Origin: Sinohyriopsis cumingii
Taxonomy: Eukaryota > Mollusca > Bivalvia > Unionida > Unionidae
DNA: 64,000 bases
Reading direction: 5' to 3'
Assembly: GCA_028554795.2 (NCBI GenBank)
Contig: JAPYKE020000037.1
Span: 3,412,501 to 3,476,500 of the forward strand
The notes below the pieces were generated by a model. It was not told where the DNA came from. It did not search any database and worked only from the letters and a program-made list of their open reading frames with translations. This document shows positions 11,356 to 13,522 of the stretch, in pieces (position 1 is the first letter of the stretch; the number at the start of each line of letters is the position of its first letter). The position numbers were made by a program, and so were the translations under genes.

Positions 11356-11715
11356 ATGTGCTCCAAACTAGCTAAGCTAAACGAAGCCTAAGTGAATTTG
11401 CATAGGGTCAGACACAGCCTGATACCGAAGCCAGAAGAGATAGAGAATGTGAGAATGTTAAAAGTCACTGAAGACCTGATAGAAGAGCTCTTCAGAGAAG
11501 AAGTGAACAGGGAGAAAGAAGAATGGACAGAGAAGTACAGAGAGAGAAACAGCAGAGAGATCAGCAACAGCAACAACAGCAGCTGCAGGAACCTGAACCT
11601 GACAGAGGCTTTGTCGATTGTAGTATCGACACCAGAGTTCTTCTTCTCTTTCCGAAGATGCAGACCTATCGTCAGAAAGTCTATCATCAGAGGACGTCGC
11701 ATTCTTAGAAACTAA
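11356..11715 (+). pseudogene. Stem-loop cassette gene 1 (charged/Gln-rich protein), early stop
   Basis: The ATG at 11356 (MCSKLAKLNEA) runs into TAA at 11389-11391, where the other copy has a Tyr codon. The frame then continues to 11715. The body is helical and charged (EELFREEVNREKEEW) and ends RRILRN. The CAG-rich stretch is read here as Ser/Asn because of compensating shifts, while the other copy encodes poly-Gln. A histone-type stem-loop follows at 11756. The function is unknown. Confidence 0.6.
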
Positions 11716-11755
11716 AAGATCGCCCTAGCTTCAACTTCACACAAGAAAAAAAAAC

Positions 11756-11771
11756 AGCCCTTTTCAGGGCT
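11756..11771 (+). terminator. Histone-type mRNA 3' stem-loop (cassette 1)
   Basis: AGCCCT-TTTC-AGGGCT, a 6-bp stem and UUUC loop followed by ACCCA, as in metazoan replication-dependent histone mRNAs. About 12 nt downstream is AGAAAAGAAATAAC (11784-11797), a purine-rich element resembling the histone downstream element bound by U7 snRNA. It lies 40 nt after the cassette stop. Confidence 0.85.
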
Positions 11772-12093
11772 ACCCAATACTCTAGAAAAGAAATAACAAT
11801 CGATTTGCCAATGTGTGTATGTAGAGTAGTGTGAATATAAACACTAACTCTTTTCTGGTGTGATTGTATGTGTTTGTGTGGATAGTAGATAATGATCATA
11901 TTTTATTTTGCTGTTTGACGTGCGTGGAGAGTAGATTTGGGGTTTGATTTGATTGCTTTGCGTATGTGAATAGTATATTGAAGTGATTAATGAAAATTTT
12001 TAAATTAGTAATGGGTAGTAAAAAAGTGAGTGAGTGTTTCTTTTAGGTCGGCGCGTTGTTTGGTCATAATCTAGGTAATATAAATTTTGTTTT

Positions 12094-12134
12094 GGGGGAT
12101 GTTTTCCTTCACGTCCGCGCTTTCACTATAAATT
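12094..12134 (+). promoter_or_regulatory. Cassette promoter box P2 with TATA
   Basis: GGGGGATGTTTTCCTTCACG, then TCCGCGCTTTCACTATAAAT. The TATA (about 12,127) lies ~55 bp before the cassette 2 ATG. A partial, degenerate box occurs just upstream at about 12,029-12,051. Confidence 0.7.
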
Positions 12135-12182
12135 GAAAATCGCTTGACAGTCTAGCTACCCTGTTCATTCGTTGACAAGACA

Positions 12183-12497
12183 ATGAATACTAGAATTGTG
12201 AAACTGCTAGAACTCCAGATGCACCTGGAATTAGCCAGGCGCATAGTAAATGAACTGGCCGCAGAGGCCATAGTAGAAGAGGCAAGGATAAAGAAAGAAG
12301 AGGAGGAGAGAAGACAAAAAGAAGAGGAGGAGGAAAAGAAAATAGGAGAGAGGATGGCTTACAAGATACCAGAGACAGAGGATTGGGGTGATGAAGCCAA
12401 TCATCCTCCCTCTGCGCTCCCAGTCAAACGAGTGAACTGGAAAGATTGGAGTAGAAGATGTGTGTGTGGTGCCAGACCTGGAAGGTGCCATCATTAA
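12183..12497 (+). CDS. Stem-loop cassette gene 2 (coiled-coil, Cys/His tail)
   Basis: An intact 104-aa protein. The N-terminal helix MNTRIVKLLELQMHLELARR leads into a Glu/Lys-rich coiled coil (residues ~35-58). Then comes a PETEDWGDEANHPPSALP linker and a C-terminal CVCGARPGRCHH that could bind a metal ion. It is strongly conserved in the other copy (45443-45751). A histone-type stem-loop follows 25 nt after the stop. The function is unknown. Confidence 0.75.
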   Translation: MNTRIVKLLELQMHLELARRIVNELAAEAIVEEARIKKEEEERRQKEEEEEKKIGERMAYKIPETEDWGDEANHPPSALPVKRVNWKDWSRRCVCGARPGRCHH

Positions 12498-12522
12498 CCA
12501 GGTGTCCTGGAGTTCAAAAAAC

Positions 12523-12538
12523 AGCCCTTTTCAGGGCT
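12523..12538 (+). terminator. Histone-type mRNA 3' stem-loop (cassette 2)
   Basis: AGCCCT-TTTC-AGGGCT followed by ACCCA, then AGAAAAGAAATAG about 12 nt later. It is identical in stem and loop to the cassette 1 element and has the same polarity as the upstream gene. Confidence 0.85.
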
Positions 12539-12749
12539 ACCCAAACCTTTAGAAAAGAAATAGTAATCAATTTGCCAATGTGTGTATGTAGAGTAGTGTG
12601 AATATAAACACTGACTCTTTTTTCCTAGTGTGAGTGTATGTGTTTGTGTTTGTAAGCGCTTAAGTTGGTTAGTGTGGATAGTAGATTTGGGGTTTATTTG
12701 TTGCTGCTTCACGTATGTGGATGGTAGATAATATGAAATGAGAAAAGTA

Positions 12750-12855
12750 GGGGATGTTTTCCTTCACGTCCGCGCGTTGTTTGGTCATGATCTAGGTAAG
12801 ATAAATTTTGTTTTAGGGGGATGTTTTCGTTCACGTTCGCACTTTAACTATAAGA
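12750..12855 (+). promoter_or_regulatory. Duplicated cassette promoter boxes P3a and P3b with TATA
   Basis: Two copies of the GGGATGTTTTCCTTCACGTC box lie at 12750-12776 and 12816-12845. The second is followed by CTTTAACTATAAG, a TATA-like element about 55 bp before the cassette 3 ATG at 12905. Between them is GGTCATGATCTAGGTAAGAT, which also lies between the paired boxes of the other copy. Confidence 0.65.
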
Positions 12856-12904
12856 ACCCACAGTGTTCGTCGTTCGCACCATTCTACGGAATAACGGAAA
12901 GAAA

Positions 12905-13491
12905 ATGGTAGCTGTATCTGACCTGTTCAACAACTTGGTAAATATATACTATTGGATAATGGATGGTATATATGCAGTGGAGAGACTAGAAAAAGAATGG
13001 AAGATAGCAGAGTACCTGGACCACGCTAAATGCCAAAACGTAGCAAAGAAGTGGTAGCAGGAATGATAGAAGAGGAGGAAAAGAGATTGAGAGGTATGAT
13101 GAATCCTGCCTATGTCAGAGTGGGAAGCCTAAAGGAAGCACTTGACAATGCAAGCAAAGTCAGGTGCTTTCTTGAAAATATGTCGCATGGGACGGAGTGC
13201 TATTTTGTGGAGAGAGGTCTGGACAGACTGAAGAAAGGAGAGGAGTTAATAAGAAAAGTGATGGAGGTAGAGGTAAAGAAGATTAAAGAGAGATGGAATA
13301 AAGAAAGAAAAGATCAGGAAAACAAAAAGAAACAGGCAGAGTTTGAGAGACTCAATCAGAATTGGATCAAAGTCCAGGAAAAGTTCAGAGCCTTGAGTCA
13401 TCCTGACTGGATGCCAGAGGAGGAGGAGAAGAAGAAGAAGAAAGGAATGATGGAAAAAGTGATGACTTGGTGGAAGAAGTGGAGGAGTTAG
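12905..13491 (+). CDS. Stem-loop cassette gene 3 (charged helical protein), probably frameshifted
   Basis: The ATG at 12905 (MVAVSDLFNNLVNIYYW) reads to a TAG at 13055-13057. A second frame from 13030 continues with 153 aa of charged helix (EEEEKRLRG) and ends VMTWWKKWRS. One indel near 13,040 would explain the split, or translation starts at 13030. The cassette at the same place in the other copy (44640-45020) has a diverged body but the same WW-basic tail. A histone-type stem-loop follows at 13507. Confidence 0.6.
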
Positions 13492-13506
13492 AAGAAGAAA
13501 CCCAAA

Positions 13507-13522
13507 GGCCCTTTTCAGGGCC
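13507..13522 (+). terminator. Histone-type mRNA 3' stem-loop (cassette 3)
   Basis: CCAAAGGCCCTTTTCAGGGC with CC completing the stem: GGCCCT-TTTC-AGGGCC, flanked 5' by CCAAA and 3' by ACTCCA. A purine-rich CGAAATAAGA follows ~12 nt later. This is the closest match in A-left to the textbook histone element, and it lies 16 nt after the stop. Confidence 0.88.

Follow-up and report, generated by a model that had tools for sequence, protein, structure and literature searches.

Can genes that encode no histones carry the 3' end signal of histone mRNAs? A 3' end of the stem-loop/U7 type is considered a hallmark of histone genes in animals, and the question is raised by a stretch of 64,000 nucleotides from the bivalve Sinohyriopsis cumingii (assembly GCA_028554795.2, contig JAPYKE020000037.1, positions 3,412,501 to 3,476,500 of the forward strand; the window hereafter), which contains two inverted copies of one element (long inverted matches, 86-97%), A-left and A-right. 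Judged by its genes and ends, the element is a Polinton (Maverick) close to the adintoviruses, and a preliminary description had claimed that three of its small genes, at the end of A-left, finish in histone-type hairpins. We found these hairpins on the + strand where they had been placed, but the first gene is a broken copy and the third is possibly split; moreover, the three belong to a set of ten, with four more in the window on the - strand and three just outside it. The five genes concerned are called G0 to G4, with the prefix L or R for the copy in A-left or A-right.

A search with the Rfam covariance model Histone3 (RF00032; cut-off 34 bits, E-values referring to the whole window) matched all three hairpins of the preliminary description (E 6.4e-5, 5.8e-5 and 1.1e-6; scores in Table 1), one of them above the cut-off. 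The window holds seven matches in total (worst E 3.2e-4, 3/7 above 34 bits), all in the two Polinton copies, and the two flanks beyond the window add three stem-loops, all above the cut-off, to give five per copy. All ten have a perfect 6-bp stem and a UUUC loop, the seven in the window having the same 6-bp hairpin fold, and all ten are in coding-strand orientation, 15-40 nt past a stop codon (in broken copies, the stop that ends the remaining frame), a spacing previously given as 16-40 nt for the first three. By comparison, 1.8% of stranded window positions fall 10-45 nt past the stop of an open reading frame (ORF) of at least 100 aa, and a degenerate stem-loop pattern that tolerates one mismatch, with seven matches in the window, is expected 0.26 times from 100 dinucleotide shuffles (largest shuffle 1). 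Chance hairpins are thus ruled out by the Histone3 scores, the pattern shuffles and the placement after stops. The G3 and G4 stem-loops are carried by the inner edges of the terminal repeats, and a signal belonging to these repeats only was rejected because the G0, G1 and G2 stem-loops lie inside the element. Histone stems begin with a G-C pair. Across the ten copies G0, G3 and G4 have a G-C basal pair, G1 and G2 an A-U pair (four A-U and three G-C among the seven in the window), such that the stem base has changed on both sides with pairing kept.

The strongest additional evidence, overlooked by the preliminary description, is a purine element downstream of the stem. Its core, AAAAGA, starts 15 nt past the stem in 9/10 stem-loops (6/7 in the window) and is broken in L_G3; AAAAGAG, a longer form that includes the AAAGAG core of mammals, occurs in L_G0, R_G3, L_G4 and R_G4. 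Between stem and core, the flank that had been described as ACCCA-like reads exactly ACCCA in five of the ten, AGCCA in two, ACTCC in two and ATCCA in one. As outlined in PMC7026596, SLBP binds the stem-loop of histone pre-mRNA, the 5' end of U7 small nuclear RNA (snRNA) pairs with a purine-rich downstream element, and CPSF73 cuts between the two, after ACCCA; the mammalian core AAAGAG pairs there with CUCUUU of U7, a sequence from which the U7 of the present host may differ. The AAAAGA at +15 stands at the position where U7 snRNA pairs in histone pre-mRNA, and both halves of the histone processing signal are present. Further downstream, TTGCC occurs +30 to +35 past the stem in 7/7 stem-loops of the window (for example in the region of 63425-63429 on the - strand and at 11789-11793 on the + strand). 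The surrounding ATTTGCC/AATTGCC block, kept in all ten stem-loops, may be an extension of the U7 pairing. Of the conventional poly(A) signals, AATAAA or ATTAAA occurs no more than 200 nt past the stop in 1/4 stem-loop ORFs of A-right, 2/17 other ORFs of A-right and 6/10 ORFs examined of element B (a neighbouring element, see below), and both hexamers are absent from the 200 nt that follow the R_G2, R_G3 and R_G0 stops.

The signal recurs elsewhere in the genome. The G2 protein is encoded at 100% identity by at least 150 copies in the 2.90 Gb host assembly (best 150 of 24295 candidates scored), and this identity suggests very recent amplification of G2 copies or exchange between them. We read 20 further loci (19 places, L031 and L032 overlapping) that were selected by identical G2 protein, with the 3' region outside the selection. 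A stem-loop pattern that tolerated up to three substitutions and required GAAA nearby found 61 stem-loops (58 distinct) in them: the loop is UUUC in 61/61, the stem fully paired in 60/61, GAAAAGA present in 60/61 and AAAAGA at +15 in 56/61, and the flank reads ACCCA in 41, AGCCA in 15, CCCAT in four and ACCCC in one. Histone3 gave 60 matches at E <= 0.0051 in these loci, 16 of them above the cut-off and three counted twice through the L031/L032 overlap. In this overlapping pair (G000:C6:156537625-156538720) the entire G2 unit is duplicated in tandem, and both copies have a promoter region and a stem-loop of their own.

Alignment of the G2 units (20 rows, 19 distinct) revealed how unevenly they vary. 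Variable columns number 1/16 in the stem-loop, 0/5 in ACCCA, 1/8 in the spacer to the purine core and 0/10 in the purine core, compared to 4/20 in the first 20 nt after the core, 30/114 in the next stretch, 3/27 in the stop-to-stem spacer and 40/248 in the promoter; the 6/309 of the ORF is a biased figure because the loci were selected by identical G2 protein. Stem-loop, ACCCA and purine core together (1/31) are less variable than the downstream flank (34/134; Fisher p 0.006, optimistic given shared ancestry), and the sole change in the stem, C-G to U-G, keeps the pairing.

The genes themselves were claimed not to encode histones, and this held: R_G1, R_G2, R_G3 and the 153-aa frame of L_G3 have no Pfam family at E 0.001, and G0 has sub-cut-off matches only, none to a histone. 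Host histone genes lying beside the element were ruled out as the source by these Pfam results, and the signal recurs at all 20 loci read. The intact set of G1 to G3 sits in A-right, where G4, a 77-aa outward-reading ORF beyond the window, has the fifth stem-loop 25 nt past its stop; A-left carries the same five genes with stem-loops, G0 there being in pieces. Comparing L_G2 with R_G2, the ratio of nonsynonymous to synonymous substitution rates (dN/dS) is 0.10 at a dS of about 1, by which measure the two copies of G2 show purifying selection. G1 is predicted to be helical (mean predicted local distance difference test score 78), its model has no viral fold match at E <= 0.001, and R_G1 has a weak match in PHROGs (E 2e-4) over a glutamine-rich coiled coil, others being weaker. 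An acidic-aromatic stretch and a basic stretch, common to the G0 relatives, suggest that G0 is a nuclear regulator, and G4 is very basic (isoelectric point 11.6).

G1, G2 and G3 also have a promoter motif in common, GATGTTTTCCTTCACGTCCGCGC, with eight copies in the window (up to 3 mismatches) where none is expected, all upstream of these genes; TATAA comes after it in G2 and G3, TTTAA in G1. G0 and G4 have a common divergent promoter without GATGTTTTCCTTCACGTCCGCGC (flanks L016 150-400 and L017 990-1240), which contains ATTGG/CCAAT, TGACGTCA and, to either side, TATA-like boxes; the names of these motifs are presumptive, and we take the arrangement to be reminiscent of divergent histone H2A-H2B promoters.

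A protein search returned 10 matches for G1 and 20 for G0, among the latter a near-identical, source-less entry (P0132) and P0142, a relative from another data set. P0142 does not have the usual stop, and its tail matches the translated R_G0 stem-loop and purine element with a score of 60, compared to a largest score of 41 in 2000 shuffles; the signal, as read through this protein tail, is therefore present in a separate relative. No other read-through tail of this kind was found among the 151 proteins compared.

From the stem-loop and purine element just past the stop codons we conclude that the mRNAs of the five small predicted genes are probably cut by the host's SLBP, U7 small nuclear ribonucleoprotein (snRNP) and CPSF73, would lack poly(A) and would accumulate chiefly during S phase. 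On the pattern of the known histone pathway, SLBP would bind the stem-loops and U7 snRNA would pair with the purine element, cleavage would fall about 5 nt past the stem and leave no poly(A) tail, and the transcripts would be restricted to S phase and decay at its end. The purpose would be timing, with the element's regulatory or early proteins made only during host DNA replication. In a broader form, to which we lean by a little, an integrating animal DNA virus lineage would have moved a gene set of its own, located at both genome ends and in three cases behind a shared promoter type, onto the histone mRNA pathway, with SLBP and U7 snRNP as an S-phase switch for viral early genes, one of which is by now present at least 150 times in a single animal genome.

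Several observations weigh against histone-type processing of these mRNAs. Exact ACCCA is confined to half of the ten stem-loops, AAAAGAG to 4/10, and the L_G3 core is degraded. The four hairpins of G1 and G2, with their A-U stem base, fall under the Rfam cut-off (29.1-31.1 bits), and the covariation at this base is modest evidence because its score is matched by 23/500 shuffles and the rows are related. The contrast in variability is weaker when the 1/31 is set against promoter plus stop-to-stem spacer (43/275, p 0.06, again optimistic given shared ancestry). R_G1 has an AATAAA 114 nt past its stop, a possible fallback poly(A) signal; in P0142 the pair that closes the loop would be lost through one codon change (F to I); and a search for the same stem-loop in other Polintons, suggested by the preliminary description, ended without a Histone3 match in pieces of five more distant ones.

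Some of these points are what would be seen if the stem-loop were leaky or optional, with many transcripts polyadenylated downstream and no strict tie to S phase, a situation that certain histone variant genes exemplify. Such mixed use is a possibility that we consider real yet rather doubtful: the AATAAA behind R_G1, the A-U stem base with its sub-cut-off scores in G1 and G2 and the five flanks other than ACCCA speak for it, and dual 3' ends are known, according to PMC7807067, for the histone variant gene H2A.X, whereas neither poly(A) hexamer follows R_G2, R_G3 or R_G0 at close range and the purine element of the G2 units is invariant, as expected if processing matters. An improbable account is that of a hitch-hiking relic, in which a host histone 3' end was captured a single time, passed among the element's genes through duplication and exchange of terminal repeats, and has no function today. 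Duplication has clearly occurred, as the 3' regions of G1 and G2 are duplicates (93% over 106 nt), those of G3 and G4 are common via the terminal repeats, and the whole G2 unit has been copied in tandem at one locus; yet the G0 3' region has the stem-loop, the purine core and the TTGCC block in common with the others and little else, the stem base has changed on both sides, and in the 20 loci variation is far lower in stem-loop, ACCCA and purine core than in the flank downstream. A DNA-level role of the inverted repeat, be it in replication, in end recognition or in integration, is very unlikely, for although each copy has two of its five stem-loops at the inner terminal-repeat edges, the other three are internal, all are sense to the preceding gene and 15-40 nt past its stop, the ACCCA-like flank and purine core are asymmetric features on the 3' side, and a curated RNA model of histone mRNA fits them.

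Table 1. Coordinates of genes, promoter motifs, stem-loops and integrated elements in the window.
Feature	Position	Strand	Remarks
L_G1, broken	11357..11715	+	TAA at codon 12 of the ATG-11357 frame; remaining frame 11455-11715; region 94% identical to R_G1
L_G2, 104 aa	12183..12497	+	
L_G3, 153-aa frame	13030..13491	+	overlapping upstream frame 12905-13057, possibly split
R_G1, 120 aa, intact	46279..46641	-	10 metagenome relatives; helical model
R_G2, 102 aa, intact	45443..45751	-	
R_G3, 126 aa, intact	44640..45020	-	
R_G0, 3' part	63487..64000	-	start about 150 nt beyond window; 20 matches in protein search
GATGTTTTCCTTCACGTCCGCGC copies, A-left	11268, 12098, 12753, 12820 (span 11268..12842)	+	upstream of L_G1, L_G2, L_G3
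GATGTTTTCCTTCACGTCCGCGC copies, A-right	46707-46729, 45821-45843, 45152-45174, 45083-45105	-	upstream of R_G1, R_G2, R_G3
Stem-loop L_G1	stem 11756-11771, Histone3 11751-11796	+	31.0 bits; AU-based stem, ACCCA, AAAAGA at +15
Stem-loop L_G2	stem 12523-12538, Histone3 12518-12563	+	31.1 bits; ACCCA, purine core at +15
Stem-loop L_G3	stem 13507-13522, Histone3 13502-13548	+	35.7 bits; flank ACTCC, purine core degraded (GAAATAAGA); inner edge of A-left terminal repeat
Stem-loop R_G1	stem 46228-46243, Histone3 46203-46248	-	29.1 bits; flank ATCCA, purine core at +15
Stem-loop R_G2	stem 45399-45414, Histone3 45374-45419	-	31.0 bits; ACCCA, purine core at +15
Stem-loop R_G3	stem 44599-44614, Histone3 44574-44619	-	35.6 bits; flank AGCCA, core AAAAGAG; inner edge of A-right terminal repeat
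Stem-loop R_G0	stem 63444-63459, Histone3 63420-63464	-	41.2 bits, E 9.6e-9, strongest of window; ACCCA, AAAAGA at +15
A-right, better-kept copy	44272..64000, continuing to about 64875	-	other terminal repeat and outward G4 with further stem-loop in flank L016
A-left, second copy	1..13914, starting about 6 kb before window	+	G4, G0 and stem-loops in flank L017
B-family DNA polymerase, A-right	58545-62582		PF03175, E 4.4e-42
Retroviral-type integrase with chromodomain, A-right	51174-52286		PF00665 (rve), E 2.6e-14
Poxvirus-A32-like packaging ATPase, A-right	54451-55209		PF04665 (Pox_A32), E 1.4e-7, above cut-off
Adenovirus-protease-like protein, A-right	46976-47536		PF00770, E 0.0086, 16.2 bits vs cut-off 21.3
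Capsid-like gene, A-right	48349-49374	-	frame-broken; break at a different place in A-left
Capsid-like gene, A-left	8899-9948	+	frame-broken; break at a different place in A-right
Two BIR-domain (inhibitor-of-apoptosis-like) genes, A-right	57259-58002 and 58062-58520	-	
Element B, second integrated element, 17 kb	26888-43922		perfect 255-bp terminal inverted repeats
Double-jelly-roll-like protein, element B	40552-41994		PF21738

The viral, Polinton-type setting given in the preliminary description was borne out by the B-family DNA polymerase, the rve integrase with chromodomain, the A32-like ATPase and the terminal inverted repeats, which measure 422 bp (97.4% identity) in A-left and 354 bp (99.7%) in A-right when the window is compared with the two flanks. 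By arithmetic, A-left is about 19.9 kb and A-right about 20.6 kb long, within the 15-25 kb range of Polintons. By their reading frames both copies are relics, A-right the better kept, because L_G1 has an early stop, L_G0 is in pieces, L_G3 is possibly split and the capsid-like gene is broken in both. The capsid-like protein has 625 relatives, close ones in other data sets being 441 aa long; among the 120 matches listed, the named ones include 'F54H12.2-like' proteins of Mercenaria (the best named, 55%), Crassostrea, Saccostrea and Ostrea, alongside entries from sea urchin, sea cucumber and whitefly, and a Pfam scan of the protein found no capsid domain. A zinc-knuckle (zf-CCHC) gene (62717-63187, + strand), located between G0 and the polymerase, is oriented opposite to the genes around it. 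The window scan gave no Histone3 match at the polymerase, integrase, ATPase and capsid-like genes of the A elements. Nor did it match element B, which serves as an internal control and which also encodes a 1086-aa helicase-like protein.

The five more distant Polinton pieces (L005-L009), two of which (L006 and L007) continue for over 5 kb beyond the capsid gene, were found by capsid alignment in GTDB contigs, in bacterial metagenome-assembled genomes (MAGs) of tubeworm, mussel and other samples (QGON01, JACCHT01, JASJAV01, CASBQM01), where they are probably contamination by host DNA. The MAG containing L005 also has a Histone3 match of 24.6 bits (L015), below the cut-off. Two pattern scans of IMG/VR yielded 4 + 5 loci, all of which lack a Histone3 match. 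No relative came from scanning IMG/VR with the integrase, G1, capsid-like and G0 proteins, nor from searching GTDB contigs with G1.

If these mRNAs are processed as proposed, they would provide a natural test of the histone 3' signal apart from histone coding sequence. They would also reveal a way in which Polintons, on whose expression there has been little work, link themselves to the host cell cycle, and RNA-seq libraries selected for poly(A) would fail to capture such viral transcripts.

How does this 3' end compare with known systems? With Polintons/Mavericks and adintoviruses, including the F54H12.2-like capsid elements of bivalves, our element has in common the B-family polymerase, the rve integrase with chromodomain, the A32-like ATPase, the capsid relatives, the terminal inverted repeats and a length of about 20 kb. 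It differs from them in its histone-type 3' end, which is not described for them in the literature searched: in line with the preliminary description, whose author knew of no such case, none appeared among the literature matches listed (mainly open-access), and a term search of the adintovirus paper PMC11071296 finds 'histone' only for histone-like proteins and 'stem-loop' not at all. With the 3' ends of animal replication-dependent histone mRNAs it shares the 6-bp stem, the UUUC loop, an ACCCA-like flank (exact in five of ten) and AAAAGA 15 nt past the stem, as well as the closeness of the signal to the stop codon, compact genes of the TATA type and the lack of an intervening frame. Unlike histone genes, the Polinton genes encode no histone, four of the seven hairpins in the window start with A-U and score below the Rfam cut-off, and the 3' end is known here from sequence alone. 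Closer to the host, histone mRNAs of the bivalve Lucina pectinata have such a stem-loop near the stop, with purine-rich elements in some only, in the data covered by PMC6210712. Loop 27 of potato spindle tuber viroid, described in PMC6827988 as folding like the histone stem-loop without the extended stem needed by SLBP, resembles the Polinton hairpins in the hairpin loop only, as the viroid has no 3' processing role and its plant host no known SLBP. The Histone3 match claimed for SARS-CoV-2, as presented in PMC7786107, scores 14.7 bits, far below the cut-off of 34, and lies inside the nsp3 coding region. The SARS-CoV-2 and Polinton matches are both viral ones to RF00032, but those of the Polinton reach 35-41 bits, stand at gene ends and come with the downstream element.

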